64,000 bases of DNA, taken from the NCBI RefSeq assembly GCF_001570585.1, contig NZ_BBXF01000002.1, positions 1,190,077 through 1,254,076 of the forward strand, in the 5' to 3' direction. This document shows, piece by piece, positions 13,684-43,124 of this stretch. The stretch is from Herbidospora daliensis (GTDB lineage Bacteria; Actinomycetota; Actinomycetes; Streptosporangiales; Streptosporangiaceae). The translations under genes were made by a program, and so were the position numbers. Below the pieces are notes generated by a model that worked only from the letters and a program-made list of their open reading frames with translations, searched no databases and was not told the DNA's origin. The stretch's first letter is position 1. The number at the start of each line of letters is the position of its first letter.

Positions 13684-14586
13684 ATGGCCGGAAAGCTGGT
13701 TCTCGTCCCGGGGTCCCGGGGGCTGGGGCGCAAGGTCCTGGAGCGGCTGCACCGCATGGACGTGCCCGTTCGCGCCATGGTCCGCCGTGACGACCAGCGG
13801 GCCGAGGAGTTGCGGGGCCTCGGCGTCGACGTCGTGATCGGTGATCTGACCAAGCCCGAGACCGTGGCCAAGGCGCTCGACGGGGTCTCGCGGATGTACT
13901 TCGGCATGACCGTCTCGCCCGACCACCTGCTGGCGGCGGCCGTGGTGGCGTCGGTCGCCAGGGAGATGCGGGTGCTCGACGGGCTGGTCGACCTGTCGCA
14001 GATGACGGTGTCGCAGATGACCGCCACCAGCGTCGGGGAGTCGGACCAGCAGCGCCTCCACTACCTGGCCGAGCGGGTCTTCGACTGGTCGGGGCTGCCG
14101 GTGATCCACGTCAGGCCGACCGTCTTCCTGGACAACCCGCTGTTCACCACGCTGGCCGCACGCTCGATCAAGGAGAACGGCACGATCGCGCTGCCGTTCG
14201 GCTCCGGGCGCACCTCGCCGATCGCCACCGACGACGTCGCCCGCGTGGTCGCGGTGATCCTGCGCGACCCGTCGCCGCACATCGGCGAGGTCTACCAGCT
14301 GACCGGGCCGCACACGCTCGACATGCACGGCGTGGCCGAGGAGTTCGCCAAGGCGCTCGACCGGTCGGTCACCTACCGGGACGTCCCGCTGCACCAGTGG
14401 CTCACCGACGTGCTGCCGAAGACGGGCCTGCCGGCGCACACGCAGCAGCACATCGCGACGATGGCCCGGCTCCACCGCGAGAACCGCTACGACCGGGCCA
14501 CCGACGACGTCTTCCGGGTCACCCGGCAGATCGCGCAGACGGTCGAGCAGTTCGTGGCGGCGCACCGGCGCCTCTACGTCAGTTGA
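13684..14586 (+). CDS. NmrA-type SDR (atypical NAD(P)-binding) protein
   Basis: The 300-residue protein starts with a Rossmann strand and LVPGSRGLGRKVLERL, an NmrA/azoreductase-like variant of the glycine motif, then RAMVRRDDQRAEEL (NADP-binding Arg pattern) and GDLTKPET. It lacks the canonical YxxxK catalytic pair, as NmrA-family proteins do. ATG 13684 has GGGGG 7-8 nt upstream. It could be a quinone reductase-like enzyme or a redox sensor. Its end overlaps the LCP gene by 8 nt. Confidence 0.85.
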   Translation: MAGKLVLVPGSRGLGRKVLERLHRMDVPVRAMVRRDDQRAEELRGLGVDVVIGDLTKPETVAKALDGVSRMYFGMTVSPDHLLAAAVVASVAREMRVLDGLVDLSQMTVSQMTATSVGESDQQRLHYLAERVFDWSGLPVIHVRPTVFLDNPLFTTLAARSIKENGTIALPFGSGRTSPIATDDVARVVAVILRDPSPHIGEVYQLTGPHTLDMHGVAEEFAKALDRSVTYRDVPLHQWLTDVLPKTGLPAHTQQHIATMARLHRENRYDRATDDVFRVTRQIAQTVEQFVAAHRRLYVS

Positions 14587-15592
14587 CCTGCTTGGTGTTG
14601 GACGTCCCCCCGTAGTCCTCGAAGTACTGCTCCAGTTTGTCGTCCCTGATGGCGGCGTACATGATCTTGGCGGCCTTCTCGTCGAGACGGACGATGCTGG
14701 CGCCCTTGACGGTGTCGGTCCCGGCCAGCGGCAGGGTCGCGGCCACCAGGCTGCCGCCGCGGATGTTGCGCAGCTCGATCGCCAGGTCGCGCAGTGTGCC
14801 GATGGAGACGCCCGAGTCGACGCTGATCGACTTGGTCAGGGCGCCGAGGAAGTCGTTCAGGGCGAACGGGTCGGTCAGCACGCCGCCGTTGATCAGCTTG
14901 TCGGCGACCGCGCGCAGGAACGCCTGCTGGCGTTTGATGCGGTCGAAGTCGCCGCCCGGCAGGCCGTAGCGCTGGCGGACGAACAGCAGCGCCTTCTCGC
15001 CTTCGAGGTGCACCGTCCCCTGCGGCCAGGTGATCTTGTTGGCGGTGTCGTACGTCTCCTTCGACACCTCGACCTCCACCCCGCCGATGGCCTTGCTCAT
15101 GGCGACGAACCCGCTGAAGTCGAGGGCGGCGAAGTGGTCGACGCGCACCCCCGACAACTTCTCGACGGTCGAGATGAGGAGTTTGGGACCGCCGTATGCG
15201 TATGCGGCGTTGATCTTGTCAGTGCCGTGTCCGGGGATCGGCACGTAGGAGTCGCGCGGGATGCCGACGAAGAAGACGCGGGCCCGGTCGGCGGGCAGGT
15301 GCACCAGCATGATCGAGTCGGCGCGGTTGAAGCCCTTCTCCCCCGGGCGCGAGTCGGAGCCGATGAGCAGCCAGTTCTGGGCCTCGCCCACGGGCTTGGC
15401 GGGACGCTCGGGTTCGGCGGGGAAGACGTCGTCGATGCGGGTGATGTTGCGGTCGTAGGTGTACTGCCGCTCCATCGCGATCGTGAAGAGAGCCGCCAGC
15501 GGAAGTGACAACACCAGTAAGGAGACAATCAAAATGTTACGACGGCGTTTAGAACGCTTTTTCGGTACTGGCTCGTCTGTGGTTTGGGTCAC
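14579..15592 (-). CDS. LytR-CpsA-Psr (LCP) family wall-polymer ligase
   Basis: The 337-residue protein has a basic cytosolic start, one membrane helix (about 20-40) and an extracellular LCP domain with LIGSDSRPGE, RADSIMLVHL, IPRDSYVPIPG and FVRQRYGLPGGDFDRIKRQ; these hold the Asp and Arg residues that bind polyprenyl-pyrophosphate. LCP enzymes transfer lipid-linked glycans to peptidoglycan. GTG 15592 (MTQTTDEP) is preferred; GTG 15658 would add 22 residues. It is divergent from the priming sugar transferase, so it probably attaches this locus's polymer to the wall. Confidence 0.9.
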   Translation of the reverse strand: MTQTTDEPVPKKRSKRRRNILIVSLLVLSLPLAALFTIAMERQYTYDRNITRIDDVFPAEPERPAKPVGEAQNWLLIGSDSRPGEKGFNRADSIMLVHLPADRARVFFVGIPRDSYVPIPGHGTDKINAAYAYGGPKLLISTVEKLSGVRVDHFAALDFSGFVAMSKAIGGVEVEVSKETYDTANKITWPQGTVHLEGEKALLFVRQRYGLPGGDFDRIKRQQAFLRAVADKLINGGVLTDPFALNDFLGALTKSISVDSGVSIGTLRDLAIELRNIRGGSLVAATLPLAGTDTVKGASIVRLDEKAAKIMYAAIRDDKLEQYFEDYGGTSNTKQVN

Positions 15593-15682
15593 GTCAGGAC
15601 GTCCCGATTGGAGAGCTGCGAGGAGGCCGAGTAAATCCAGGTGGAAGCGGGTGCGCACGCAGCTGTCCAGAGCCGCGCCTGA

Positions 15683-15711
15683 AGTATAAATGGCCTTATG
15701 TGGACATTCAG
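15683..15711 (-). promoter_or_regulatory. Promoter of the LCP gene
   Basis: On the minus strand CTGAAT (15711-15706), a 17-nt spacer and TATACT (15688-15683) form a good vegetative promoter. The start point would be near 15676. Confidence 0.55.
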
Positions 15712-15779
15712 ATGAACTTTCCCTCTAAGTTGCGGCGATCTTACGATCGTTCCATCGTTCACAGACTTCAAGGTCAACA

Positions 15780-15796
15780 AGATCAGTCAGTGATCT
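15780..15796. repeat. Inverted repeat, possible operator
   Basis: AGATCA and TGATCT flank GTCAG in the LCP/sugar-transferase divergent region, 45-60 nt before the sugar-transferase start. It could bind a dimeric regulator of the polysaccharide locus. Confidence 0.35.
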
Positions 15797-15840
15797 AGGT
15801 AAACCAACGGTACAGGTGGGGCGTCCGTCAGGTAACAAGT

Positions 15841-17310
15841 GTGGGGGAAAGGCGCATCTGCGACATGGGTGTTGCTCTTGAAGAGGCAGTTCGTTCCGGG
15901 ATCGGAGATCCCGGCTGGTCACGGCGCTACATCCGCGCCGCCGTCGCCATGGACACCCTCAGTGGTGCCGCGGCGATCCAGGGCGTCCTGCTCGCGCGCT
16001 TCGCGCTCGGCATCGCCCATCCCGTCGAGGTGCCACTCGGGCTGGCGATCGCCACCGGCTGGCCGCTCACGGTGGGACTCGTCGGGGGGTACGACCGTCG
16101 TCACATCGGCGACGGCGCCGACGAATATCGAAAGATCATTCATTCCGCGGCCATCCTGGCGTCGGTCGTCGCGATCAGCGCCTACGTCACCCAGACGTCG
16201 ATCGCCCGGTCCTACGTGATGGCCGGCATCCCGATCTGCGCGCTGCTCACGCTCGGCGTCCACTACGCCCTGCGCAAGCGGCTGCACCGCCGGCGCCGCA
16301 ACGGCGAGTGCCTGCGGCGGGTGGTCGTGGTCGGCCACTGGACCTCGGTGCTCGACCTGCACGCGCAGTTCTCCCGCGAACGCCACCACGGCATGCGGAT
16401 CGTGGCCGCGTGCGTGCCGCCCGACCAGGCCGGGCAGCTGCCCTCGCAGGTCGACGGGTTCCCGGTGCTCGGCGACTTCAAGAACGTGCCGGAAGTGGTG
16501 GTGGCGGCGCAGGCCGACAGCGTGGCCGTGCTCGCCTGCCCCGAACTCGACGGCCACGCGCTGCGGCGGCTGGCCTGGCAGCTGGAGGAACGCGGCACCG
16601 AGCTGCTCGTCGCCACCGCCCTCATGGAGGTCGCGGGGCCGCGCATCAACATCCGGCCGGTCGCCGGCCTGGCGCTGCTGCACGTCGAGCACCCCGACAT
16701 CCGGGGCATGCGGCAGGCGATCAAGAGCGTGTTCGACCGGGTCGTGGCCAGCATGGTGTTATTGATGCTGCTGCCGTTCATGCTGGTCATCGCGGCGGCG
16801 GTCAGGCTCAGCAGCCCGGGTCCGGCGCTGTTCCGGCAGGCCCGCGTCGGCAAGGACGGCGAGGTCTTCACCGTCTACAAGTTCCGCACGATGACGGCCG
16901 ACGCCGAGCGCCGCAAGATCACCCTGCGAACGTTCGGCGACGACGGCAACGGGGTGCTCTTCAAACTCAGGAACGATCCAAGGATCACCCCCCTCGGAAC
17001 GTGGCTCCGGCGCTACTCCCTCGACGAGCTCACCCAGCTCATCAACGTCATCAAGGGGGAGATGTCGCTGGTGGGGCCGCGCCCGCCGCTGCCCGAGGAG
17101 GTCGCCCAATACGGCGACGACGTGCGGCGGCGGCTGCTGGTGAAGCCCGGCATGACGGGCCTCTGGCAGGTCAGCGGCCGGTCCGACCTGACGTGGGAGG
17201 AGTCGGTGCGGCTCGACCTGCGGTATGTCGAGAACTGGTCGCTCACCCTTGACGTGCTCATTCTCTGGAAGACGTGGTCGGCCGTGTTCGGCGGGCGGGG
17301 AGCGTACTGA
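15841..17310 (+). CDS. Polyprenyl-phosphate sugar-1-phosphate transferase (priming enzyme of polysaccharide synthesis)
   Basis: The 489-residue protein has an N-terminal set of about four membrane helices, a central Rossmann-like region (RRVVVVGHW...), a further membrane hairpin (VVASMVLLMLLPFMLVI) and the catalytic bacterial sugar transferase domain (about 295-485) with SPGPALFRQARVG, YKFRTM, SLDELTQLINV and LVGPRPPLPEE. It loads the first sugar-1-phosphate on the lipid carrier. A TTA codon lies at 16759-16761. GTG 15841 has AGG 8 nt upstream; ATG 15865 is an alternative. It heads the rmlABD transcript. Confidence 0.93.
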   Translation: MGERRICDMGVALEEAVRSGIGDPGWSRRYIRAAVAMDTLSGAAAIQGVLLARFALGIAHPVEVPLGLAIATGWPLTVGLVGGYDRRHIGDGADEYRKIIHSAAILASVVAISAYVTQTSIARSYVMAGIPICALLTLGVHYALRKRLHRRRRNGECLRRVVVVGHWTSVLDLHAQFSRERHHGMRIVAACVPPDQAGQLPSQVDGFPVLGDFKNVPEVVVAAQADSVAVLACPELDGHALRRLAWQLEERGTELLVATALMEVAGPRINIRPVAGLALLHVEHPDIRGMRQAIKSVFDRVVASMVLLMLLPFMLVIAAAVRLSSPGPALFRQARVGKDGEVFTVYKFRTMTADAERRKITLRTFGDDGNGVLFKLRNDPRITPLGTWLRRYSLDELTQLINVIKGEMSLVGPRPPLPEEVAQYGDDVRRRLLVKPGMTGLWQVSGRSDLTWEESVRLDLRYVENWSLTLDVLILWKTWSAVFGGRGAY

Positions 17311-17315
17311 AAACA

Positions 17316-18383
17316 ATGAAGGCCCTGGTTCTGGCGGGAGGCTCGGGCACCCGCCTGCGGCCCATCACGCACACGTCGGCCAAGCAACTCGTACCGGTGG
17401 CCAACAAACCGGTGCTCTTCTACGGCCTGGAGGCCATCGCCGACGCGGGGGTCCGCGACGTCGGCATCGTCGTGGGCGACACCCAGGCCGAGATCGAGGC
17501 GGCGGTCGGCGACGGCTCGCGGCTCGGCCTCAACGTCACCTACCTGCGGCAGGACGCGCCGCTCGGGCTGGCGCACGCGGTGAAGATCGCGCGCGACTTC
17601 CTCGGCGACGACGACTTCGTCATGTACCTGGGCGACAACTTCATCGTCGGCGGCATCCGCTCGCTGGTCGCCCGGTTCGGGCACGACCGGCCCGCCGCGC
17701 AGATCATGCTCACCCAGGTGCCCGACCCGACCCAGTTCGGCGTCGCCGAACTCGACGCCGACGGCCGCGTCGTCGCGCTGGAGGAGAAGCCGAAGGAGCC
17801 CAAGAGCGACCTCGCGCTGGTCGGCGTCTACCTGTTCACGTCCGCCGTCCACGAGGCGGTGGCCGAGCTCAAGCCGTCGGCGCGCGGCGAACTGGAGATC
17901 ACCGACGCGATCCAGTGGCTCATCGACGACGGCCGCCGGGTCGAGTCGACCGTCATCTCGGGCTACTGGAAGGACACCGGCAACGTCGCCGACATGCTCG
18001 AAGTGAACCGGCTGGTGCTGGAATCGCTCCAGCCGGCGGTACGCGGCCAGGTCGACGCCGCCTCCGAGCTCATCGGCCGCGTGGTCGTCGAGGAGGGCGC
18101 GGTCGTGACCGGCTCGCGCATCGTCGGCCCGGTCGTCATCGGGCCGGGCGCCCAGGTGCGCGACTCCTACGTCGGGCCGTTCACCTCGGTGGCGGCCGGC
18201 TGCGTCATCGCCGACAGCGAGATCGAATACTCGATCCTGCTGGCCCGTTCGTCCATCACCGGGGTGCGCCGGGTCGAGGCGTCGCTGATCGGCCACGACG
18301 TCGAGGTCACCCCGGCCCCCAACACGCCCCGGGCCCACCGGCTGGTGCTCGGCGACCACAGTAAGGTGCAGATTTCGGCATGA
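17316..18383 (+). CDS. rmlA: Glucose-1-phosphate thymidylyltransferase (long RmlA type)
   Basis: The 355-residue enzyme makes dTDP-glucose from dTTP and glucose-1-phosphate, first step to dTDP-L-rhamnose. The nucleotidyltransferase core has LAGGSGTRLRP (about 6-15) and YLGDNF; the C-terminal third is a left-handed beta-helix (VGPVVIGPGAQVRDSYVG...) as in the longer StrD-like actinomycete enzymes rather than the roughly 290-residue RmlA. ATG 17316 lies 5 nt after the sugar-transferase stop. Its stop overlaps rmlB (ATGA). Confidence 0.92.
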   Translation: MKALVLAGGSGTRLRPITHTSAKQLVPVANKPVLFYGLEAIADAGVRDVGIVVGDTQAEIEAAVGDGSRLGLNVTYLRQDAPLGLAHAVKIARDFLGDDDFVMYLGDNFIVGGIRSLVARFGHDRPAAQIMLTQVPDPTQFGVAELDADGRVVALEEKPKEPKSDLALVGVYLFTSAVHEAVAELKPSARGELEITDAIQWLIDDGRRVESTVISGYWKDTGNVADMLEVNRLVLESLQPAVRGQVDAASELIGRVVVEEGAVVTGSRIVGPVVIGPGAQVRDSYVGPFTSVAAGCVIADSEIEYSILLARSSITGVRRVEASLIGHDVEVTPAPNTPRAHRLVLGDHSKVQISA

Positions 18384-19321
18384 CACGTGTCCTGGTCACT
18401 GGCGGCGCCGGGTTCATCGGCTCTCATTTCGTGCGCACCCTGCCCGATGCGAAGATCACCGTCCTCGACAAGCTGACCTACGCCGGCAACCGTGCCAACC
18501 TCGACGGGGTCGACCACGACTTCGTCCACGGCGACATCTGCGATCCCGCCCTGCTGGCCGAGGTCGTGCCGGGCCACGACCTGGTGGTGAACTTCGCCGC
18601 CGAGAGCCACGTCGACCGGTCGATCGACGGCGCGGCCGACTTCGTGCGCACCAACGTGCTCGGCGCGCAGACCCTCATGCAGGCCTGCCTCGACGCCGGG
18701 GTGCCGAGGGTCGTGCAGGTCTCCACCGACGAGGTCTACGGCACCATCGAGACCGGCTCGTGGGACGAGAGCGCCGCGGTGAACCCGCGGTCGCCCTACT
18801 CGGCGGCCAAGGCCGGTGGCGACATGATCGCGCGGGCCTATGCGGTCACCCACGGGCTCAACGTCTCGATCACCCGCTGCGGCAACAACTACGGGCCCTA
18901 CCAGTATCCCGAGAAGGTCATCCCGCTGTTCGTGACCAACCTGCTCGAAGGGCGGCGGGTGCCGCTCTACGGCGACGGCGGCAACGTGCGCGACTGGGTG
19001 CACGTCGACGACCACTGCCAGGGCATCCGCCTGGTGGCCGAGGTCGGCGAGCCCGGCGAGGTCTACCACATCGCCGGCACGGCCGAGATGTCCAACCGCG
19101 AGCTGACCGAGCAGTTGCTCGCCGCGTGCGGCGCGACCTGGGACAGCGTCGACTTCGTCGACGACCGCAAGGGCCACGACCGCCGCTACAGCCTCGACGA
19201 CACCCGGTTGAGGGCTCTCGGGTACGCCCCCCGCTGGACCTTCGACCAGGGTCTGGCCGACACGGTCGCCTGGTATCGCGACCACCCGACCTGGTGGAAG
19301 CCGCTGCGGGGGTGGTCGTGA
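18380..19321 (+). CDS. rmlB: dTDP-glucose 4,6-dehydratase
   Basis: The 313-residue extended SDR has GGAGFIGS (8-15) for NAD, the STDEVYG motif (Thr116, Asp117, Glu118 for dehydration) and catalytic Tyr140/Lys144 in SPYSAAK. It converts dTDP-glucose to the 4-keto-6-deoxy sugar. It overlaps rmlA and rmlD starts by 4 nt on each side, so the three are one translationally coupled unit. Confidence 0.94.
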   Translation: MTRVLVTGGAGFIGSHFVRTLPDAKITVLDKLTYAGNRANLDGVDHDFVHGDICDPALLAEVVPGHDLVVNFAAESHVDRSIDGAADFVRTNVLGAQTLMQACLDAGVPRVVQVSTDEVYGTIETGSWDESAAVNPRSPYSAAKAGGDMIARAYAVTHGLNVSITRCGNNYGPYQYPEKVIPLFVTNLLEGRRVPLYGDGGNVRDWVHVDDHCQGIRLVAEVGEPGEVYHIAGTAEMSNRELTEQLLAACGATWDSVDFVDDRKGHDRRYSLDDTRLRALGYAPRWTFDQGLADTVAWYRDHPTWWKPLRGWS

Positions 19322-20130
19322 CCCGCTGGCTGGTCACCGGCGGCGGGGGCATGCTCGCCACCGATCTGGTCCGCGTCCTCGACGGGGCCGACGTCCGCGC
19401 ACCCTCCCGCGCCGACCTCGACATCACCGACGAGACCGCCGTCGCCGAGGCCGTGAACTGGGCCGACGTGGTGGTGAACTGCGCGGCGTGGACGGCGGTC
19501 GACGACGCGGAGACCCACGAGGACGCCGCCCTGAGGATCAACGCTCCGCGTGCGCTGGCCGAGGCGGCGGGCCGCAAGCTCGTCCACCTGTCCACCGACT
19601 ACGTCTTCTCCGGCGAGGGCCGCGAGCCCTGGCCGGAAGACGCCCCGACGGGCCCGGTCAACGCCTACGGCCGCACCAAGCTGGCCGGGGAGGAGGTCGT
19701 CGCCGACCACCACGGCACGATCGTCAGAACCGCCTGGTTGTACGGCGCCCACGGTCCCAACTTCGTGCGCACGATGGCCCGTCTCGAACGCTCTCATGAG
19801 GTCGTGACCGTCGTCGCCGACCAGCACGGCCAGCCCACCTGGACCCTCGATTTGGCCCGCCAGATCGTCGACCTGGTCAACGCGGGCGCGCAGGGCGTCT
19901 TCCACGGCACCAGCTCCGGCGCCACCACCTGGCACGGCCTGGCCCAGGAGGTCTTCCGCCTGCTGGGCGCCGACCCCGAGAGGGTGCGGCCGGTCGGCTC
20001 GGAGGCCTACCCCCGGCCCGCGACCCGTCCGAAGAACAGCGTGCTGGCCCACGGCGGGTGGGCGGCGGCGGGCCTCAAGCCGATGCGCGACTGGCGAGAG
20101 GCCCTGCACGACGCCTGGCCGGAGCTCTAG
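19318..20130 (+). CDS. rmlD: dTDP-4-dehydrorhamnose reductase
   Basis: The 270-residue SDR has TGGGGMLATDL (glycine motif near 7-17), HLSTDYVFSG (90-99) and YGRTK (Tyr117/Lys121), the RmlD hallmark set. It reduces the 4-keto group to give dTDP-L-rhamnose. GTG 19318 overlaps the rmlB stop. Its last 4 nt overlap the convergent FkbM gene. The epimerase partner is not here but at 39349. Confidence 0.93.
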   Translation: MTRWLVTGGGGMLATDLVRVLDGADVRAPSRADLDITDETAVAEAVNWADVVVNCAAWTAVDDAETHEDAALRINAPRALAEAAGRKLVHLSTDYVFSGEGREPWPEDAPTGPVNAYGRTKLAGEEVVADHHGTIVRTAWLYGAHGPNFVRTMARLERSHEVVTVVADQHGQPTWTLDLARQIVDLVNAGAQGVFHGTSSGATTWHGLAQEVFRLLGADPERVRPVGSEAYPRPATRPKNSVLAHGGWAAAGLKPMRDWREALHDAWPEL

Positions 20131-21086
20131 AGGGCCTTCTCCGCCGGAGAGACGATCACGTCCCGGGAGCCGTAGCGCGGCAGCGGCTCCTCCGACGCCA
20201 GTTCGGCGTCGGTGATGACGTGCAGCGCGTCGTGGCCGATGGCGCGGATCTCGTAGTTCTCCGCGCGCAGGTCGCGCAGCACCTGACGGAGCGCGGGAAC
20301 GTTCCTGAGCACCTCGACGACGATCGTGGGCCGGGTGGCCAGCAGCTGCGGCCAGACCGCGCGCAGCACGCCGGCCTCGTAGCCCTCGATGTCGAGCTTG
20401 ATGAGGTCGACGCCCTCGACCAGCTCCGACATCTTCACCGTCTGCACCGTGATCGTGCGGGAGGCCGGGCGGTTGCTGATGCCCTCGCCGCCCTCCGACA
20501 GGTAGGCCCCCGTCGGTGCGACGTAGCTCTCCTGGTCGGGCAGCGACAACTCCAGGGTCGCGGGCGCGTCGTCGGGCACCACGGCGGCCTGGATCACCTT
20601 CACGTTGACCAGCTCGTTGAGCTCGGCGTTGCGCGTCACGATCGCCGCCGCCTCGGGGTTGGCCTCCACCGCGACGTACGGGGTGCTCCCGGCCGCCTCC
20701 GCGCCCTGGACGGTGTAGTAGCCGATGTTGGCGCCCAGTTCGAGGATGCCGGTGGCCTTGGCGCACAGGTCGCGCCAGCAGGCCGTCTCCATGCCCTCGT
20801 AGCCGCGCTCGCCGTACCAGAACAGGATGCGCACCAGCCGCGACTCGACGGCGGCCAGCCGGATGCGGGGGTTGTCGGGCAGCGCGAAGTCGTCGACGAA
20901 GCCCAGCGGGCGGTGCCGCAGCACCTTCACCACCTGGCCGAGCAGGGTGCGGGAGACCCCGGAGGAGGAGTGGAATCCCGAGCGGGTCTTCATCGTCACC
21001 GCGGGCGGCACCACGACGAGGGCGCGGGAGAGCATTTCCCGGGCCCGCATTCGGACGCGCAGGACAGGCGAGAGCTTTTCGACCAT
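20127..21086 (-). CDS. FkbM-family SAM-dependent methyltransferase
   Basis: The 319-residue protein has the SAM-binding LELGANIGYYT (about 115-125), an acidic loop (VAVEANPEAA) and VDLIKLDIEGYEAGVL, the FkbM motif set. FkbM enzymes methylate hydroxyls, often on sugars, so O-methylation of the polymer built here is plausible. It is read alone on the minus strand, separated from the secreted-propeller operon by 128 nt that contain a terminator. Confidence 0.88.
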   Translation of the reverse strand: MVEKLSPVLRVRMRAREMLSRALVVVPPAVTMKTRSGFHSSSGVSRTLLGQVVKVLRHRPLGFVDDFALPDNPRIRLAAVESRLVRILFWYGERGYEGMETACWRDLCAKATGILELGANIGYYTVQGAEAAGSTPYVAVEANPEAAAIVTRNAELNELVNVKVIQAAVVPDDAPATLELSLPDQESYVAPTGAYLSEGGEGISNRPASRTITVQTVKMSELVEGVDLIKLDIEGYEAGVLRAVWPQLLATRPTIVVEVLRNVPALRQVLRDLRAENYEIRAIGHDALHVITDAELASEEPLPRYGSRDVIVSPAEKAL

Positions 21087-21176
21087 GGACTTCTCTCGAA
21101 TCGGGGCAAAATGTATCGACCCACAATAAGGGCGACCATCCTCTTTTTTCAGGACCCAATTCGATCAGGAAATATC

Positions 21177-21205
21177 GGACCCGCCCCTCCCTCCAGGGCG
21201 GGTCC
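21177..21205 (-). terminator. Terminator after the propeller operon
   Basis: A perfect 10-bp stem (GGACCCGCCC with GGGCGGGTCC) around a 9-nt loop lies 9 nt beyond the stop of the 21214 gene; on the minus strand GATATTTCC follows. Confidence 0.65.
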
Positions 21206-21213
21206 GCCCCGCG

Positions 21214-22836: not shown

Positions 22837-22855
22837 GGCCGGAGTATGAACCCGA

Positions 22856-26254: not shown

Positions 26255-26312
26255 GAATGCCTGTTCTCCCCGCTTTTGCATTCCTCACATAAAGAAGTGG
26301 TCGGTTCACAGT

Positions 26313-27422: not shown

Positions 27423-27430
27423 CGTTGCCG

Positions 27431-27465
27431 CATCCAAATGTTTGATTACCGTTTACGGTTGGATG
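27431..27465. repeat. Nested inverted repeats between divergent glycosyltransferase genes
   Basis: CATCCAA (27431-27437) and TTGGATG (27459-27465) are perfect complements, and between them ACCGTTTACGGT (27448-27459) is a second palindrome. The element lies in the only gap between the two divergent transcripts, so it may be their shared operator. Confidence 0.45.
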
Positions 27466-27494
27466 TTCATCTTGTCATCCATCGAAGGGGACGC

Positions 27495-30314: not shown

Positions 30315-30410
30315 GTGACTCGTCCTCTCAACCGGTCCATAGTGAAAAGTTATTAACCGCTCGTATGCTGGCACACGTCACCAAGCGGAGCGGCGATTCG
30401 GGGGGACCGC

Positions 30411-31685: not shown

Positions 31686-31695
31686 AGGGGACCAA

Positions 31696-33327
31696 ATGCG
31701 CAAGACCCTGATATCGGGCCTGATCGCCGCGTTAGCGGTGACGCCCGTCCCCGCGGCGATGGCCGACACGGCCCCCGCCACGGGGGAAGTCGCCACAGTC
31801 ACGGCCGACGCCCTGCCCACCTGGCAGACCGACGGAGTGGTGCTGACGATCGAGATCGTCAACGGGGTGACCTACGTCGGAGGCAACTTCGACAACGTCC
31901 GTCCGCCGGGCGTGCCCAAGGGGGGCGCGGGCGAGGTGCCGCGGGTCGGCTTGGCCGCGTTCGACACCGCCACCGGCGACCTGCTGCCGTGGAACCCGGT
32001 GGCCTTCTCGCCGACGTTCACCGACGACCAGGCGCAGAACGAGTGCGACAAGATCTCCACCGGCACCTACCGCTGCGACACGGTGTGGGAGATCAAGGCC
32101 TCGCCCGACGGCTCGAAGATCTACGTCGCCGGCGACTTCAACAAGATCGACAGCTCGCGGCGTGACCGCATGGCGGCCTTCGACACCGCCACCGGCGCCC
32201 TCGACCCCGACTTCAAGCCGGTGTTCAACAACCGGGTGCGCGCGATCGCCGTGTCCGATACGACCGTCTACGCGGGCGGCCACTTCACCACGGTGAACGG
32301 CGAGACCCGCACCCGCCTGGCCGCGTTCGACGCCTCGACCGCCGCGCTCACCTCGTGGACGCCGACGGCCGACAAGCGCGTCAACGCGATGATGCTGACC
32401 CCCGCGGGCAACCGCCTCATCGTCGGCGGCGACTTCGACCGCATCAACGGCGTCAAGCAGCACGGCCTGTCGGCCGTCAACGTGAGCGACGGCTCCAAGG
32501 GCACGTTCAACAGCAACGACATCCCGGCCAACAGCTCCAGCAGCCGCTCGTGGGTGACCGACATCGTCTCCGACGGCACCCGCATGTACGCCAGCGCCAA
32601 CGGCGAGGGCACCTTCGACGGCCGCCTGGCCTTCAACCCCGACAACGGCTCGCGCATCTGGATCAACAACTGCCTCGGCGCGACCCAGGCGATCTCGGTG
32701 ATGGGCGGCGTCCTCTACAGCGGCAGCCACGCCCACCGCTGCAACATGCAGAACTACTACGGCAACGACGGCTTCCCCGAGACCAAGCCGCACCGCCGCT
32801 ACCTCGCCGAGCCCGCCGGCACGGCGCAGGGCGGCAAGCAGACCATCCTCCACTGGTTCCCCAACTCGGCCCCCGGCACCGTCTACCCCTGGGTCCAGGG
32901 CCCGTGGTCCATGGCCAACGACGGCACCTACCTGTGGGCCGGCGGTGACTTCACCGAGGTCAACGACGTGGCGCAGCAGGGCCTCACCCGCTGGACCTTC
33001 CACGAGACCAAGCCCGACACCGGCGGCCCCATCCAGGCCGGGTTCGGCGCGCCGACCCTCCAGGCCAACGGCGGCGGCAAGGTGACCGTCCGCTGGGGCG
33101 CCACGTGGGACCTCGACAACCGCAAGGTGCGCTACGAGGTGCTGCGCAACGACGGCCAGGTCGCCTGCACCGCCGAGGCGTTCTCGGTGTTCTGGAACCT
33201 GCCGAACCTCTCGTGCCAGGACACCGGGCTCACCCCCGGCGCGTCGCACACCTACCGGGTGCGCGCGATCGACCCGTACAACAACCGCGTCTCCAGCCCG
33301 ACCAGCGCGTCGGTGACGGTTTCGTGA
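31696..33327 (+). CDS. Secreted delta-60-repeat beta-propeller with fibronectin-like end (propeller C)
   Basis: The 543-residue protein has a signal peptide (cleavage near MADT, about 24), then DALPTWQTDGVV, the start shared with propeller D, and repeat units such as VYAGGHFTTVNGETRTRLAAF (landmark) ending before about residue 440. Residues about 450-543 form an Fn3-like domain (VRYEVLRND, HTYRVRAIDPYNN). A TTA codon lies at 31732-31734. AAGGGG is 6 nt before ATG 31696. It is coupled to the beta-helix gene (GTGA). Confidence 0.83.
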   Translation: MRKTLISGLIAALAVTPVPAAMADTAPATGEVATVTADALPTWQTDGVVLTIEIVNGVTYVGGNFDNVRPPGVPKGGAGEVPRVGLAAFDTATGDLLPWNPVAFSPTFTDDQAQNECDKISTGTYRCDTVWEIKASPDGSKIYVAGDFNKIDSSRRDRMAAFDTATGALDPDFKPVFNNRVRAIAVSDTTVYAGGHFTTVNGETRTRLAAFDASTAALTSWTPTADKRVNAMMLTPAGNRLIVGGDFDRINGVKQHGLSAVNVSDGSKGTFNSNDIPANSSSSRSWVTDIVSDGTRMYASANGEGTFDGRLAFNPDNGSRIWINNCLGATQAISVMGGVLYSGSHAHRCNMQNYYGNDGFPETKPHRRYLAEPAGTAQGGKQTILHWFPNSAPGTVYPWVQGPWSMANDGTYLWAGGDFTEVNDVAQQGLTRWTFHETKPDTGGPIQAGFGAPTLQANGGGKVTVRWGATWDLDNRKVRYEVLRNDGQVACTAEAFSVFWNLPNLSCQDTGLTPGASHTYRVRAIDPYNNRVSSPTSASVTVS

Positions 33328-34997
33328 AACGGGGGCTCGCCGCCGCGGGGGCCGTCGCCCTCGCGGTGGCGGGCGTCCTGATCGGGGCCGCGCTCATGCG
33401 GCCCGACACCGCAGGTCCGGCCCAGCCGTCGTGGAAGACGGCCGGGCCGGCCCCGCTGGGGACGGCCGACTACCCCGTCCCCGAAGGCGCCTTCTTCGTC
33501 GCCCCCGACGGCGACGACGCGCAGCAGGGCGGCGAAGGCAGGCCCTGGCGCACGCTGGCCCATGCCGTGGAGACCGCCCCCGAGGGCTCGACGATCGTGC
33601 TGCGGGCGGGCGTCTACCACGAGAAGGTCGAGATCTTCCGCAAGCGCCTGGCCATCCAGAACCACCCCGGCGAGGTCGTCTGGTTCGACGGCAGCGAACC
33701 GGTCGGCGGCTGGGTCCGCGACGGCTCCCTCTGGCGGCGCGACGGCTGGGACGTGCGCTTCGACAACACCGACTTCACCGCGGGCGGCGGCGAAGACTGG
33801 CACATGGTCGACCCGGAGCACCCGATGGCCAACTGGCCCGACCAGGTCTTCGTCGACGACCGGCAGCTGACCCAGGTGCGGAGCGCCGAGCAGGTGGGCC
33901 CCGGCTCCTTCTTCGTCGACTACCAGGCCGGCCGCCTGTTCATCGGCGACGACCCCACCGGCCGCGAGGTGCGCGCCACCACCCTCGACGAGGCCCTCTA
34001 CTTCGAGGGCGCCGACGGGTCGTCCCTCAAGGGCGTGGGGGTACGGCGCTACGCCACCTCCCTGGCCAGGATCGCCGCCGTCAAGGCGTTCGCCGACGAC
34101 ATGACGATCGAGAACAGCGTCTTCGCCGAGACCTCGGTCACCGGCCTGTCGCTGAAGGGCGCCCGGATCACCGTCAGGAACAACCTGTTCGCGGGCAACG
34201 GCCAGGTCGGCATCGGCGGCCACAAGTCCGACGACGCGACGATCGTCGGCAACATCAGCCGCGGCAACAATGTGGAGCGTTTCATGATGGCCCCGGTCTC
34301 CGGCGGCCTGAAGATCACCGAGTCGAAGCGCATGACGGTCGTCGGCAACCTCATGGAGGACAACCGGGGCCCCGGCATCTGGCTCGACGAGTCGATCGTC
34401 GGCGCCGTGGTCGCCCGCAACCTGGCCCGGAACAACGCCCACCACGGGATCCATTTCGAGATCTCGGCCGGGGCGCTCATCGCCGGAAACATGGTGACCG
34501 GCAACGGCACCAACGGCATCTATGTGAACGAGTCGAGCGACGTCCGGGTCTGGAACAACACCGTAACCGACAACAAAGGCCGCCAGATCTATGTGATCGA
34601 CGGCGCGCGGCAGCAACTCACCCCGGGAGTGACCTGGAATGTGAGTGGCGTCGAGGTGCGAAACAACGTGCTTTCCTCGGCGGGAGCCGAGCCTCTGGTG
34701 GCGGTACGCGATCTGACCCGCCGCAAGGGCGCGGCCGACATGGCGAGCCTCGACCACAACGTCTACCAGCGGCGCGGACCAGGGCCGCTGGCCGACTGGG
34801 CCGACTGGACGCGGGCCGACGCCGACGTCGCCTCGGTGGCCGATCTGCGCCGGATGACCGGTCAGGAAAGCCACGGCAGTGAGCCGAAAAATGGTGATTT
34901 GCCCGATGGTGCGCCGCTGCCTTCCGACGTCGCCGAGTTGTTCGGCGAGGAAGCCGGGACGGTGCTTAAATCAGGCGCTCCAGAAGGTGAACTTTAA
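33324..34997 (+). CDS. Secreted or membrane-tethered right-handed beta-helix protein (beta-helix 2)
   Basis: The 557-residue protein has an N-terminal hydrophobic helix (about 4-25, no clear cleavage site, so it may be an anchor), then FVAPDGDDAQQGGEGRPW, the start of the DUF1565-like beta-helix, with Asn-ladder turns (ITVRNNLFAGN, MTVVGNLMEDN, VRVWNNTVTDN). It is a paralogue of the 4203 protein (GQESHGS/GRESNAH and GAPLPSDVA/GAPLPEDVA) but lacks the Pro-rich linker and DUF5648. Start GTG overlaps the propeller C stop, so the two are made together. Confidence 0.85.
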   Translation: MKRGLAAAGAVALAVAGVLIGAALMRPDTAGPAQPSWKTAGPAPLGTADYPVPEGAFFVAPDGDDAQQGGEGRPWRTLAHAVETAPEGSTIVLRAGVYHEKVEIFRKRLAIQNHPGEVVWFDGSEPVGGWVRDGSLWRRDGWDVRFDNTDFTAGGGEDWHMVDPEHPMANWPDQVFVDDRQLTQVRSAEQVGPGSFFVDYQAGRLFIGDDPTGREVRATTLDEALYFEGADGSSLKGVGVRRYATSLARIAAVKAFADDMTIENSVFAETSVTGLSLKGARITVRNNLFAGNGQVGIGGHKSDDATIVGNISRGNNVERFMMAPVSGGLKITESKRMTVVGNLMEDNRGPGIWLDESIVGAVVARNLARNNAHHGIHFEISAGALIAGNMVTGNGTNGIYVNESSDVRVWNNTVTDNKGRQIYVIDGARQQLTPGVTWNVSGVEVRNNVLSSAGAEPLVAVRDLTRRKGAADMASLDHNVYQRRGPGPLADWADWTRADADVASVADLRRMTGQESHGSEPKNGDLPDGAPLPSDVAELFGEEAGTVLKSGAPEGEL

Positions 34998-35094
34998 TCG
35001 TTACTTCATGTCCCACGGGTTACTCCTTGCTTGATTAAACCGTTCCATTACTCTTGCATCGATGTGAGAACGATCTCCTGAGATGTAGGTAACC

Positions 35095-38000
35095 GTGGTA
35101 ATTCGATCATCGCGAGTGGCCGCCTTCCTGGCCGCGTCATTACTGGGGGCGTCGCTCGCGGCGATCCCCCTTCCCGCCCGGGCCGACATCGACCCGCCGC
35201 CGGGAGTCACCGAGACCGTCACGGCCGACGCACTGCCCACGTGGCAGATCAACGGCGTGGTCTGGAAGATGGCCACCGTCGGCAACACCGTCTACGCGGT
35301 CGGCAGCTTCACGCGCGCCCGCCCGCCGGGCACCGCCCCCGGGAACGCGGCCGAGGTGGTGCGGTCGAACATCCTGGCCTTCAACATCACCACGGGTAAC
35401 GTCACCTCCTTCGCCCCGACCCTGAACGCGCAGGCGCGCACCATCGCCGTCTCGCCCGACCAGACGAAGATCTACATCGGCGGCGACTTCACCCAGGTCA
35501 ACGGCCAGACCCGCAACCGGGTCGCCGCCTTCGACGTCGCCACGGGCAACCTCGAGTCGTGGGCGCCCTCGGTCGGCAACGTGGTCCGCGCGATCACGGT
35601 CTCCAGCTCGACCGTCTACATCGGCGGCAACTTCTTCAGCGTCAACGGCCAGAGCCGCAACCGCCTGGCCGCCGTCAACCGGAGCAACGGCGCCAACCAG
35701 CCGTGGGCGCCCGACACCGACGACGAGGTCTTCGCCCTGATCATGTCGCCCGACCAGAGCCGGGTCATCGTGGGCGGCAAGTTCCAGCAGCTCAACAACG
35801 CCACCCGGGTGGGCATCGGCGCCCTCGACCCGGTCACCGGCGACTCGCTGCCGTGGAGCAGCAACCCGATCCCGGCGCGGATCGGCAACGACTACTCGAT
35901 GACCTACGACCTCACCACCGACGGCACCAACATCTACGCCGCCGCCGACGGCGAGGGCTGGCACTGGTTCGACGGCCGGTTCGCGGTCGAGCCCAACACG
36001 GGCGACCTGATCTGGCTCGACAACTGCTACGGCGCCAGCTACAGCGTCTTCCCGATCAACAACGTGCTCTACAGCGTGGGCCACGCCCACGACTGCGAGT
36101 CGATCCGCGGTTTCCCCGAGGTCTCGCCGACCCGCTGGCAGCGCGCGCTGGCCACGACGATCGAGGCGACCGGCACCGACCCGATGCCGCCGTCGAACAA
36201 CAGCCAGTACAGCGGTCAGCCCACGCCGACCCTGCTCCACTGGTTCCCGCAGGTCAACGCCGGTTCCTACACCGGCATGAACCAGGGCGGCTGGGCCCTG
36301 TCGGGCAACAGCGACTACCTGGTCATGGGCGGCGAGTTCACCACCGTCAACGGCGGCGCGCAGCAGGGCCTCACCCGGTTCGCGGTCAAGGCGCACGCGC
36401 CGAAGACCTCCGGGCCGATCCCGTCGGCCGACCTGACCCCGACCGCGGTCTCGCTCAACGCGGGCACCGCACGCCTGAGCTGGAAGACCACCTGGGACCG
36501 CGACCACGCGAAGGTGAAGTACCAGATCCTCCGCGACGGCGGCACGACCCCGATCGGCGAGGTCGAGGTCGACTCCAACTTCTGGACCCTCCCCTCGGCC
36601 GGCTTCATCGACGAGGGCCTCACGCCCGGCTCGGTGCACACCTACCGCGTCCGCGCCGTCGACCCCCAGGGCAACGCCGTCGGCAGCGGCACCTCCGACC
36701 CGGTGACGATCTCCTCGGCGGGCGCGCTCAGCGACTACGCCGAAGCCGTCATCGACGACGGCGCCGCCGCCTACTGGCGGCTCGGCGAGGCCTCGGGCAC
36801 GACCGCCTTCGACTACGCCGCCTTCACCGACGCCACCCGTGACGCCGGCACCTCCCAGGCGAGCCCCGGCGCGATCAACGGCGACGCCGACGCCGCGGCG
36901 GCCTTCAACGGCACCGGCACCGGCCTGGTGAAGACCAACAGCACGGTCGCCACCACCCCGGCCTTCTCGATCGAGGCCTGGGTCAAGACCACGTCGAACC
37001 AGGGCGGCAAGATCGTCGGGTACGGCGCCTCCGCCACCGGCGAGTCGGGCAGCTACGACCGGCACGTCTACATGGACAACGCCGGCCGCGTCTACTTCGG
37101 CGTCTACCCCAACGCGGTGCGCACGGTGAACAGCGCCCCCGGCTTCAACGACGGCCAGTGGCACCACATCGTCGCCACCCAGGGCACCGGCGGCATCGCC
37201 CTGTACGTCGACGGCCGCCGCGTCGGCCAGGACCCGTCGGTGACCACGGCCCAGTCCTACACCGGCTACTGGCGGATCGGCGGCGACAACCTCAACGGGT
37301 GGCCGAACCGCCCGACCAGCCTCTACCTCAACGGCCAGATCGACGACGTCGCGATCTACCCGACGGCCCTCGCGCCGGCCAAGGTCGACGCCCACTTCGT
37401 CGCCTCAGGCCGCACCAGCCCGATCCCGCCGCGCCCGGCCGACGACTACGGCCGCGTCGTCTACGACGACGAGCCGGTGACCTACTTCCGGTTCAACGAG
37501 GCCAACGGCCCGGCGGCGGTCGACGCCAGCACCAGCGGCGTCAACGGCACGTTCACCAACACCAACGTGACCTACAACCAGACCGGCGCGATCGTCGGCT
37601 CGACCAACCGGGCGGTCCGGGTGCAGAGCGGCGGCCGGGCGGTCTCCGGCAACGCGACGACCAACCCGACGACCTACTCGGCCGAGGTCTGGTTCCGCAG
37701 CTCGTCGAACCAGGGTGGCAAGATCGTCGGCTTCGGCAACACCGCCAGCGGCACCAGCTCCAACTACGACCGCCACGTCTACATGCGCAACGACGGCCGC
37801 CTGGTCTTCGGCACGTACACCGGCGCGTTCAACCTGATCACCACGACGGCTGCGTACAACAACAACCAGTGGCACCACCTCGTGGCGACCCAGGGCGCCG
37901 ACGGCATGAAGCTCTACGTCGACGGCGCGCTCGTGGGCACCAACGCGCAGACGAGCGCCGAGAGCTACTCGGGTTACTGGCGCTTCGGCAGCGACACGCT

Positions 38001-39288
38001 GAACTCCTGGCCGAACCGCCCGAGCTCCGACAACTTCAACGGGTGGCTCGACGAGGGCGCGATCTACACCAAGGTGCTCAGCGCGGCCGAGATCGCCCAG
38101 CACTACCAGGAGGGCACCGGCACCGGCCCGGCCAACCAGCCGCCGACCGCGTCGTTCACCTCCTCCTGCACCGACCTGGAGTGCTCGTTCGACGCCTCGG
38201 CGTCGGCCGACGCCGACGGGACGGTCGAGAGCTACGCCTGGGACTTCGGCGACGGCCAGACCGGCACCGGCGCCACCCCGACCCACGCCTACACCGCCGC
38301 CGGTGACTACCCGGTCACCCTGACGGTCACCGACAACGACGACGCCACCGCCAACAGCGGCAGCGTGGTCGTGCCCCGCCCAGCCGCCAACCCGCCGTCG
38401 ATCATCGCGAACGACACCTTCGGCCGGACCCTCAACGGCGCGCTCGGCACCGCCCAGACCGGCGGCCCGTGGACGCTCGTCGGCGGCACCGGCAACTTCT
38501 CCGTCGACGGCAACGCGGCCAAGCTCGCCCTCCCGGCGACGGCGGCCAACCCGCGCGCCTACCTCGACGGGGTGTCCAGCACCACCGCCGACCTGTCGTT
38601 CTCGATCGCGTCCGACAAGGTCGGCACCGGCAACGGCACCTACCTGTTCGCCTCCGGCCGCCGCGTGGCGGGCGTCGGCGAGTACAAGGTCCGGGCGCGG
38701 CTGCTCCCGTCGGGCGTCGGCCTCGCGCTGATCCGCACCGCCGGGGCCAGCACCGACACCCTGATCACGTCGGAGACCATGATTCCGGGCCTGACCTACA
38801 CGCCGGGCCTGGTGCTCAACATGCGGGTGCTCGTCACCGGCACCAACCCGACGACGATCTCCGGCAAGGTCTGGAACGCCGCCGCGACCGAGCCCGCCTC
38901 CTGGCAGGCGACGACCACCGACGCCACCGCGAACCTCCAGGTCGCCGGCGGCGTGGGCATCGGCGCCTACCTGTCGGGCACCGCGACGAACGCGCCGATC
39001 ACCCTGACGGTCGACGACCTCGCCGCGAGCAACCTGGCCGCCGCCCCGACGGCCGCGTTCACGCCCACCTGCACCGGCCTGACCTGCGACGTCGACGCCT
39101 CGGCCTCGACGGCCGGGTCGTCGGCCATCGCGAGCTACACGTGGAGCTACGGCGACGGCGGCGCCCCCAGCACCGGCCAGACCGGCTCGCACACGTACGC
39201 GACGCCCGGCACCTACAACATCACCCTGACCGTGACGGGCGCCGACGGCCGGACCTCGGTCGTGGTCCAGCCCGTGACCGTCGCCTAA
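35095..39288 (+). CDS. Large secreted multidomain protein: beta-propeller, Fn3, two LamG, two PKD modules (propeller D)
   Basis: The 1,397-residue protein has a signal peptide (cleavage near ARAD, about 30), a delta-60 propeller (about 35-445) closely similar to propeller C, an Fn3 domain (about 450-545), two tandem LamG/concanavalin-like domains (about 550-765 and 780-1010; both hold EAWVKTTSNQGGKIVG or its variant), a PKD domain (about 1015-1100), a jelly-roll-like stretch and a last PKD domain (to 1397; FTPTCTGLTCDVDASAS). A TTA codon lies at 35140-35142. LamG and PKD modules bind glycans or proteins outside the cell. It may be a surface adhesin or polysaccharide-matrix protein. Confidence 0.85.
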   Translation: MVIRSSRVAAFLAASLLGASLAAIPLPARADIDPPPGVTETVTADALPTWQINGVVWKMATVGNTVYAVGSFTRARPPGTAPGNAAEVVRSNILAFNITTGNVTSFAPTLNAQARTIAVSPDQTKIYIGGDFTQVNGQTRNRVAAFDVATGNLESWAPSVGNVVRAITVSSSTVYIGGNFFSVNGQSRNRLAAVNRSNGANQPWAPDTDDEVFALIMSPDQSRVIVGGKFQQLNNATRVGIGALDPVTGDSLPWSSNPIPARIGNDYSMTYDLTTDGTNIYAAADGEGWHWFDGRFAVEPNTGDLIWLDNCYGASYSVFPINNVLYSVGHAHDCESIRGFPEVSPTRWQRALATTIEATGTDPMPPSNNSQYSGQPTPTLLHWFPQVNAGSYTGMNQGGWALSGNSDYLVMGGEFTTVNGGAQQGLTRFAVKAHAPKTSGPIPSADLTPTAVSLNAGTARLSWKTTWDRDHAKVKYQILRDGGTTPIGEVEVDSNFWTLPSAGFIDEGLTPGSVHTYRVRAVDPQGNAVGSGTSDPVTISSAGALSDYAEAVIDDGAAAYWRLGEASGTTAFDYAAFTDATRDAGTSQASPGAINGDADAAAAFNGTGTGLVKTNSTVATTPAFSIEAWVKTTSNQGGKIVGYGASATGESGSYDRHVYMDNAGRVYFGVYPNAVRTVNSAPGFNDGQWHHIVATQGTGGIALYVDGRRVGQDPSVTTAQSYTGYWRIGGDNLNGWPNRPTSLYLNGQIDDVAIYPTALAPAKVDAHFVASGRTSPIPPRPADDYGRVVYDDEPVTYFRFNEANGPAAVDASTSGVNGTFTNTNVTYNQTGAIVGSTNRAVRVQSGGRAVSGNATTNPTTYSAEVWFRSSSNQGGKIVGFGNTASGTSSNYDRHVYMRNDGRLVFGTYTGAFNLITTTAAYNNNQWHHLVATQGADGMKLYVDGALVGTNAQTSAESYSGYWRFGSDTLNSWPNRPSSDNFNGWLDEGAIYTKVLSAAEIAQHYQEGTGTGPANQPPTASFTSSCTDLECSFDASASADADGTVESYAWDFGDGQTGTGATPTHAYTAAGDYPVTLTVTDNDDATANSGSVVVPRPAANPPSIIANDTFGRTLNGALGTAQTGGPWTLVGGTGNFSVDGNAAKLALPATAANPRAYLDGVSSTTADLSFSIASDKVGTGNGTYLFASGRRVAGVGEYKVRARLLPSGVGLALIRTAGASTDTLITSETMIPGLTYTPGLVLNMRVLVTGTNPTTISGKVWNAAATEPASWQATTTDATANLQVAGGVGIGAYLSGTATNAPITLTVDDLAASNLAAAPTAAFTPTCTGLTCDVDASASTAGSSAIASYTWSYGDGGAPSTGQTGSHTYATPGTYNITLTVTGADGRTSVVVQPVTVA

Positions 39289-39297
39289 CCGATCATC

Positions 39298-39329
39298 GAT
39301 GCCCCGCCGGGTTCGCCCGGCGGGGCATC
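39298..39329 (+). terminator. Strong hairpin between propeller D and rmlC
   Basis: A perfect 14-bp stem (39298-39311 with 39316-39329) with a TTCG tetraloop starts 10 nt after the propeller D stop. No U tract follows, and the rmlC SD is only about 7 nt further on, so it may act as terminator, attenuator or mRNA stabiliser. Confidence 0.7.
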
Positions 39330-39348
39330 TGTCATGTAAGGAGTCCCC

Positions 39349-39936
39349 ATGGAAGAACTGCCGATCAAGGGCGCCTACCTGCACACCCCGAGGCTGTTCC
39401 ACGACGACCGGGGCACGTTCATGGAGTCGTTCCGGGCCGCCGACCTCGCCGAGGCCGCCGGCCACGGCCTGCGCCTGTCCCAGGCCAACACCTCGGTCTC
39501 GGCCAAGGGCGTGATCAGGGGCGTCCACTACGCCGACGTGCCGCCCAGCCAGGCCAAATACGTGACGTGCCTGTCGGGCCGCATCCTCGACGTGATCGTC
39601 GACCTCCGGGTCGGCTCGCCGACGTTCGGCGAGCACGTGCCGGTGGTCCTCGACTCCGAGAGCTTCCGGAGCGTCTACATTTCCGAGGGCCTCGGCCACG
39701 GCTTCGCCGTCCTCAGCGACAGCGCGACGGTCTTCTACCTGTGCTCCGAGCCCTACGCGCCGACGCGGGAACGCGGCCTCAACCCGCTCGACCCGGAGCT
39801 GGGCATCGACTGGCAGGTCGCCGAACCGATCCTGTCGGAGAAGGACGTACAGGCCCCCACAATGAAGCAGGCCCTCGACGAGGGCCTGCTTCCTGATTTC
39901 GAGACGTGTACGACCTTCTACAAGACCCTGTCTTAG
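39349..39936 (+). CDS. rmlC: dTDP-4-dehydrorhamnose 3,5-epimerase
   Basis: The 195-residue cupin has the RmlC motif set: RGVHYA (catalytic His60), QAKYVTC, SVYISEGLGHGFAVLS (His117) and the VFYLCSEPYAP segment with catalytic Tyr. It completes dTDP-L-rhamnose synthesis with rmlABD, which lie 19 kb away at the other edge of the locus. AAGGAG is 6 nt before ATG 39349, the best SD of the region. Confidence 0.92.
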   Translation: MEELPIKGAYLHTPRLFHDDRGTFMESFRAADLAEAAGHGLRLSQANTSVSAKGVIRGVHYADVPPSQAKYVTCLSGRILDVIVDLRVGSPTFGEHVPVVLDSESFRSVYISEGLGHGFAVLSDSATVFYLCSEPYAPTRERGLNPLDPELGIDWQVAEPILSEKDVQAPTMKQALDEGLLPDFETCTTFYKTLS

Positions 39937-42874: not shown

Positions 42875-42893
42875 AGCGCTCAGTCCTCCTCGA

Positions 42894-43096: not shown

Positions 43097-43104
43097 GGTG
43101 CCTA

Positions 43105-43110: not shown

Positions 43111-43124
43111 TGTCCCCGCTGGAT

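Follow-up and report, generated by a model that had tools for sequence, protein, structure and literature searches.

What role do secreted beta-propellers and a beta-helix protein play among the genes of a surface-polysaccharide locus in the actinomycete Herbidospora daliensis? The window, by which we mean the whole 64,000-nucleotide stretch of DNA analysed here (G000:C2:1190077-1254076), lies within an 8.5-Mb Herbidospora genome and is ~70% GC. Gene calling and family scans bear out that its positions 14579-39936 hold a Wzx/Wzy-type polysaccharide locus interleaved with secreted propellers (called A to D below) and a beta-helix protein, and they recovered the gene content as claimed in an earlier note on this DNA. 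We consider it probable that the locus makes a rhamnose-containing, optionally sulfated Wzx/Wzy polysaccharide and co-encodes the proteins that organise or remodel this polymer outside the cell. The earlier note had likewise proposed that the extracellular proteins belong functionally with the polymer, and neighbourhood linkage across relatives supports that proposal.

From a scan that used one genome per species, we kept 77 propeller-C/D loci in Actinomycetota out of at least 481 confirmed relatives and searched a 10 kb radius around each for five linkage markers (priming, Wzx, Wzy, GT4b and Wzz genes), using profiles built from family members. At least one marker lay within 10 kb at 55 of the 77 loci and at least two at 48, versus none of 20 control windows placed by hand in three genomes, which rules out chance proximity. 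A priming gene was found within 20 kb at seven further loci (L119, L132, L135, L137, L138, L146 and, at ~19 kb, L084), bringing the total to 62 of 77. Genome-wide positions of the priming-enzyme family PF02397 placed a priming gene no more than 20 kb away at 25 of 36 loci versus 0.50 expected from one random point per genome in 34 genomes, the 36 loci being hand-picked (mostly one per group plus unlinked loci) and not random. Linked loci were present in 20 of 23 groups defined by genus or metagenome-assembled genome (MAG) name, or 21 if the RYN_229 MAG (L084) is counted; these include Streptosporangiales genera, Micrococcaceae, Pseudonocardiales MAGs, Kribbella, Streptomyces and Cryobacterium. 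In the reciprocal direction, a Wzy orthologue was detected in 12 of 150 family genomes, and in all 12 the contig that holds Wzy also holds a propeller C/D relative, within 10 kb of Wzy in 11 and ~30 kb away in G093. Distance to Wzy was tracked beyond RmlC by the helix (partial r 0.86) and by propeller D (0.68) across the 26 loci holding all five genes compared, with four Herbidospora duplicates dropped and a permutation that ignores phylogeny.

Propellers A, C and D kept their spacing in all seven genus genomes, and a propeller-C relative at E 1e-15 was present in 20 of the 150 family genomes, of which 12 outside the genus were read in detail, with G051 and G113 left out. The module was present in five genomes of other genera (G135, G100, G039, G070 and G133) and was often rearranged: G100, G039 and G070 have Wzx and propeller B flipped, and G133 shows a quite different gene order. 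In G093 the cluster and one propeller-helix pair share a contig, ~20-40 kb apart, and none of the cluster was found in the 20 kb read on a second propeller contig of that genome. In G120, G020 and G008 a priming transferase lies close to a propeller, and these genomes have no Wzy orthologue. The loci of Kribbella and of the Streptomyces-labelled SID13031 (L117, L121 and L130) are laid out in much the same way, combining a priming transferase and several propellers with a helix that has diverged strongly; for SID13031, either a wrong label on the record or transfer of the locus may be the explanation.

On the left side of the locus lie an LCP-family glycopolymer transferase (14579-15658, minus strand; PF03816 E 1.4e-45, TIGR00350 above cut-off), which is a candidate for attaching the polymer to peptidoglycan, a priming polyprenyl-phosphate glycosylphosphotransferase (15841-17310, plus strand; PF02397 E 8.5e-68, TIGR03025 415.8 bits, above cut-off) and, also on the plus strand, long-form RmlA (17316-18383; TIGR01208 457.6 bits), RmlB (18380-19321; TIGR01181 395.1 bits) and RmlD (19318-20130; TIGR01214 262.6 bits). 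With RmlC at the right end (39349-39936, plus strand; TIGR01221 169.9 bits), all four enzymes of the dTDP-L-rhamnose pathway are encoded, all above NCBIfam cut-offs. WcaJ and WbaP models fell below cut-off for the priming transferase and so do not specify the first sugar. A minus-strand run comprises glycosyltransferase GT4a (26313-27437; PF13692 E 3.2e-33), a Wzz/CpsC-like chain-length protein (25118-26281; GNVR E 0.0054, 17.1 bits versus a cut-off of 27.7), a putative Wzx-like flippase (23847-25118), propellers B and A, and an accessory FkbM-family methyltransferase (20127-21086; PF05050 E 2.3e-13, TIGR01444 above cut-off) that was detected in two of the five other-genus loci (G135 and G070) and did not turn up in the parts of G100, G039 and G133 that were read. 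The Wzx-like protein had no match in Pfam or NCBIfam, and the names Wzx and Wzz are used because of hydrophobic pattern (by inspection for Wzx), size and synteny. A plus-strand run contains GT4b, an APH-like kinase, Wzy, propeller C, the beta-helix, propeller D and rmlC, with a sulfotransferase on the opposite strand between them. GT4b (27498-28586) has DUF1972 and GT4 domains and is nearest to the rhamnosyltransferase Cps2T (NF046071, E 7.2e-56, 190 bits versus a cut-off of 500). Adjacency of LCP to the locus was also seen in G100, G039 and G070, and the LCP gene is the sole basis for suggesting that the polymer may be attached to the wall.

The clearest indication of what one of the extracellular proteins may do comes from the beta-helix (33324-34997, plus strand), which we predict to be a GH120-like glycosidase. 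A profile built from 12 relatives and searched against PDB sequences returned the GH120 beta-xylosidase XylC (3vst) as the best of 14 listed, at E 6.3e-18 (2.2e-12 with six relatives), and XylC was also the top Foldseek match of an AlphaFold model, at E 3.9e-9 and 13% identity over the alignment. BT_1002 came next in that search, pectate lyase, lacto-N-biosidases and AlgE epimerases ranked lower, and TM-scores were low. K330, D355 and E379 of the beta-helix (codons 34311-34313, 34386-34388 and 34458-34460) align with K358, D382 and E405 of XylC, the last two of which we take to be its named catalytic residues. All 43 beta-helix sequences compared, both beta-helices of the window among them, keep a G-x-K / W-x-D / E motif unchanged, and G328, K330, G351, W353, D355, E379 and N412 are all invariant. 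According to a review, GH120 enzymes are retaining and use Asp as the nucleophile and Glu as the acid/base (PMC6887791). Because the three residues align with those of XylC and never vary, the protein has what is, judged from sequence, a glycosidase-type active site, and the invariant Asp/Glu dyad rules out a mere scaffold. What links the protein to XylC is thus a beta-helix fold hit, at a low TM-score, and the aligned Asp/Glu pair and Lys, whereas it differs in its low identity, in sitting within a biosynthetic locus and in being secreted or membrane-anchored, by inspection. Glycosidase activity is predicted, and the co-encoded polymer would be the obvious candidate substrate; where the earlier note offered binding, processing or display, the GH120-like dyad favours processing for this protein. 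A second beta-helix lies outside the locus (4203-6707, minus strand; 834 aa, with a C-terminal DUF5648 domain), is present in six of six genus genomes, keeps the W-x-D / E motif (D393 and E417) and is perhaps another GH120-like enzyme.

The beta-helix might instead be an alginate-type C5-epimerase or lyase acting on uronic acids of the polymer. We regard this as unlikely. Secondary matches to AlgG/AlgE epimerases (E 7e-8 with the six-relative profile and 5e-10 with that of 12 relatives) and to NosD/AlgG models point in that direction, as does the beta-helix lyase RbmB at Foldseek rank 43 (E 0.023), but a GH120 enzyme was the best match in sequence and fold searches alike, the XylC residues align with invariant positions, and no UDP-sugar dehydrogenase turned up among the locus proteins scanned.

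The position of the helix gene also bears on whether the propellers and helix might simply be generic secreted actinomycete proteins hitchhiking in a polysaccharide island, such that their linkage reflects block inheritance and no shared function. We judge this to be rather improbable, though 15 of the 77 propeller loci had no marker link within 10 kb or up to the contig end, a DUF5122 protein ~119 kb away in the same genome has no such marker nearby, and relatives are unevenly sampled, with 29 of the 77 loci from Actinomadura. Against it, linkage persists although gene order and orientation have been reshuffled between genera, it spans most of the groups sampled and holds in the reciprocal Wzy comparison, and the helix adjoins Wzy or lies one gene away in 32 of the 33 loci that have both (adjacent in 10, separated by one gene in 22 and by two genes in 1). 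The intervening gene in those 22 loci is the sulfotransferase in 16 and propeller C in 6. The 15 unlinked loci are five from Actinomadura (L079-L082 and L115) together with L105, L113, L123, L124, L126, L128, L136, L139, L141 and L148; some are on short contigs, and PF02397 was looked for further out at 11 of them (L081, L113, L139 and L141 being excluded beyond the flank). The neighbourhood check that the earlier note had set in advance as capable of refuting its proposal was therefore survived by the linkage as a whole, with these 15 loci as the part that did not conform.

The Wzy-type polymerase (30411-31685, plus strand) belongs to the O-antigen ligase family by PF04932 (E 8.3e-15, 55.3 bits versus a cut-off of 31.7), a model that does not separate polymerase from ligase and is common to Wzy polymerases and ligases in general. 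That the propellers and helix are cargo, meaning surface proteins glycosylated by a Wzy-like O-oligosaccharyltransferase and not binders of free polymer, is highly unlikely: the Wzy protein is weakly similar to the ligase models PEP_O_lig_1 (E 1.8e-10) and TfpM (E 2.2e-7), and secreted proteins are encoded directly downstream of its gene, but both matches are far below cut-offs, the Wzz-like protein and LCP indicate a polymer, and the helix has catalytic residues and not just acceptor-like sequence.

We found that the four proteins described as propellers in the earlier note are not equally secure in that assignment. Propeller C (31696-33327, plus strand) is a secreted DUF5122/Rax2 propeller with an Fn3-like domain and passes the DUF5122 cut-off (PF17164, 36.8 bits versus 27), for which D (25.2 bits) and A (22.6 bits) fall below. 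Propeller D (35095-39288, plus strand), a secreted protein with an Fn3-like domain recognised by alignment with propeller C, two LamG domains (Laminin_G_3 E 6.7e-44) and two PKD domains (PKD_4 E 4.9e-39), is above the Rax2 cut-off (38.1 versus 28.8 bits), and propeller A (21214-22836, minus strand), an accessory secreted propeller with a C-terminal domain, is above that of PQQ_2 (30.9 versus 27.6 bits). Propeller B (22856-23881, minus strand), which by inspection has a signal peptide, a propeller-like region and a C-terminal membrane anchor, had no Pfam match and a weak resemblance to YncE propellers (NCBIfam E 0.0047; PDB E 0.027), making it the weakest propeller call of the four. The gene couplings that had been proposed are present: the Wzx-like gene and propeller B overlap by 35 nucleotides (nt), given the first ATG, propeller B is separated from propeller A by 19 nt by coordinates, and a GTGA overlap at 33324-33327 joins propeller C to the beta-helix. 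Propeller B was detected at 31 of 35 Wzy-bearing loci and at none of the loci without Wzy among the 77, and the flanks of 6 of the 77 loci contained propeller A, as did one of the five other-genus loci (G135). A PDB search with the propeller alignment gave weak matches only, and the model of propeller C shows a propeller plus an Fn3-like domain at a mean pLDDT of 77.3. One further DUF5122 protein is encoded outside the locus (L189:9071-10288, G000:C2:1084071-1085288; 44.2 bits, over the cut-off); it is present in seven of seven genus genomes, with no polysaccharide marker in the surrounding 20 kb read.

Sulfation of the polymer was another part of the earlier proposal, which envisaged, as a possibility, a sulfated, rhamnose-containing wall polysaccharide. 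The sulfotransferase (29418-30374, minus strand; PF00685 E 1e-10) had its best PDB match to 3rnl, entitled 'Sulfotransferase' (E 4e-20), followed by heparan sulfate 3-O-sulfotransferases (E 2e-13) and NDST (E 1e-10). Its gene is convergent with that of the APH-like kinase (28583-29440, plus strand; PF01636 39.8 bits), and the pair (28583-30374) overlaps by 23 nt. Both were present together in 26 loci, with single kinase or sulfotransferase matches confined to L099 and L111, two contigs of one Actinomadura montaniterrae genome. The genome encodes two APS kinase domains at other sites, and these could provide the sulfate donor. Since the sulfotransferase resembles heparan-sulfate enzymes and the genome encodes APS kinase domains, a sulfated polymer is plausible, and because neither the sulfotransferase nor the kinase is present at 8 of the 35 Wzy-bearing loci, sulfation would be optional; that part of the proposal thus stands with a restriction, and its wall component depends on the LCP gene. 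Four more distant propeller loci (G137, G021, G089 and G008) also have sulfotransferase and APH-like genes beside them, with Wzz-like genes in three of them (above cut-off in G137 and G008, below it in G089).

Several known systems resemble parts of this locus. In Vibrio cholerae the rbm genes are located between the vps operons, and the vps/rbm system shares with our locus the combination of polysaccharide genes, secreted propellers and a beta-helix polysaccharide-degrading enzyme. Two papers describe the propellers Bap1 and RbmC as binding the Vibrio polysaccharide (VPS) directly (PMC10102183) and RbmB as trimming surface VPS (PMC11695861). The Herbidospora locus, in contrast, is in another phylum, has DUF5122/Rax2-type propellers with LamG, PKD and Fn3-like domains, includes LCP and rml genes, and has a beta-helix closest to GH120 and not to RbmB. 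A closer organismal precedent is the imp cluster of Actinoplanes missouriensis, an actinomycete set of Wzx/Wzy-type matrix polysaccharide genes beside a glycosidase gene, gimB, whose secreted product is described as cutting the matrix (PMC12691653). There, however, GimB is drawn as GH5, and the main text of the paper carries no mention of a propeller, a beta-helix or the word stems rhamnos and sulf (PMC12691653). Papers on PslG, PelA and AlgL likewise describe a hydrolase or lyase gene inside a polysaccharide cluster (PMC9075953, PMC9894940, PMC8829089). Those loci share with ours a built-in polysaccharide-cutting enzyme, which belongs to other enzyme families. We know of no propeller set at any of the three. 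A Wzx/Wzy locus with accessory matrix proteins and a hydrolase is therefore known in principle; we found no description of the combination of propellers with a polysaccharide cluster in the open-access literature searched, and, judged by that literature, what is new is this particular gene set, how widely it occurs across Actinomycetota and the GH120-like enzyme.

Taken together with these precedents, the locus suggests the following route. The priming enzyme, by its family, would load a sugar phosphate onto the lipid carrier, and the two GT4 enzymes, at least one of which is probably a rhamnosyltransferase, would build the repeat unit from dTDP-rhamnose made by RmlABCD. The repeat unit would then be flipped by Wzx and polymerised by Wzy with Wzz, and LCP may tether the polymer to the wall. 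The APH-like kinase and sulfotransferase, which co-occur, may act as one cassette that decorates the polymer. Membrane-anchored propeller B, given its linkage, may partner the flippase and polymerase at the outer face of the membrane, and, by analogy with Bap1 and RbmC, the polymer may be bound and cross-linked by propellers C and D, both of them secreted and D equipped with lectin-like LamG and PKD domains. Binding of the polymer by the propellers is plausible on the strength of that analogy. The beta-helix, as its relationship to GH120 and its dyad suggest, would act as a glycosidase of the retaining type, trimming the polymer or releasing it.

A number of observations weigh against this account of the polymer and its partners. 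The beta-helix model has a mean pLDDT of 62.9 and a TM-score to XylC of 0.39, identity to XylC is low, and catalytic residues by themselves are no proof of activity. No Wzy match was found within the flanks of 8 of 41 helix-bearing loci, one of which (L084) has the rest of the cluster and a second helix further along the contig; the helix is missing at 2 of the 35 Wzy loci (L078 and L112, the latter with a weak Wzy match); and the only helix match of G135 is ~41 kb from Wzy. Because it is missing at L078 and L112 and distant in G135, the beta-helix enzyme is not indispensable. No LCP gene turned up in the parts of G135 and G133 that were read or within the flanks of any of the 77 propeller loci, and here too it is more than 10 kb from propeller C. 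The best 50 of the 447 PDB matches of the propeller C model at E <= 0.001 point to WD40-like propellers of a generic kind and include none that is glycan-specific and neither Bap1 nor RbmC, and for this last reason we suggest that the propellers work like the Vibrio matrix proteins and do not claim membership. Propeller C also did not turn up in the loci compared from Microtetraspora, Sphaerimonospora and Microbispora, which, with propeller A near so few loci, means that not all four propellers are core. A four-propeller set as the conserved core is unsupported; only the D-type, plus propeller B at Wzy loci, recur widely.

On a broader scale, we tentatively suggest, as a possibility that we hold with some doubt, that these loci are an independently evolved, widespread actinomycete counterpart of the Vibrio vps-rbm system. 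Such a counterpart would combine a matrix polymer, cross-linkers, a membrane propeller coupled to flippase and polymerase, a new family of GH120-like self-processing glycosidases encoded close to Wzy and, as an optional part, a kinase-sulfotransferase cassette tuning the charge of the polymer, possibly in the sheath of aerial hyphae or spores. As far as we know, little is understood about the extracellular matrix that filamentous actinomycetes form, and DUF5122, a domain without an assigned function, is named in one paper of the open-access literature searched, as a modelling target. If the proposed functions hold, DUF5122 propellers would gain a function as polymer partners, and the beta-helix proteins would form a new branch of glycosidases with the likely native substrate encoded alongside. 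The sulfotransferase would be a bacterial heparan-sulfate-type enzyme acting on a wall or matrix polymer, and actinomycete matrix assembly and release would become testable by simple deletions in soil strains.

Outside the locus, genes for KorAB (2-oxoacid:ferredoxin oxidoreductase) and a polysaccharide deacetylase (39988-44570, minus strand) follow its right end, and these genes flank the locus in several genera. They also adjoin a different propeller/sulfotransferase locus in G021 (L070). The recurrence of this border in several genera and at the G021 locus therefore suggests a fixed insertion site at the border of korAB and the polysaccharide deacetylase gene.

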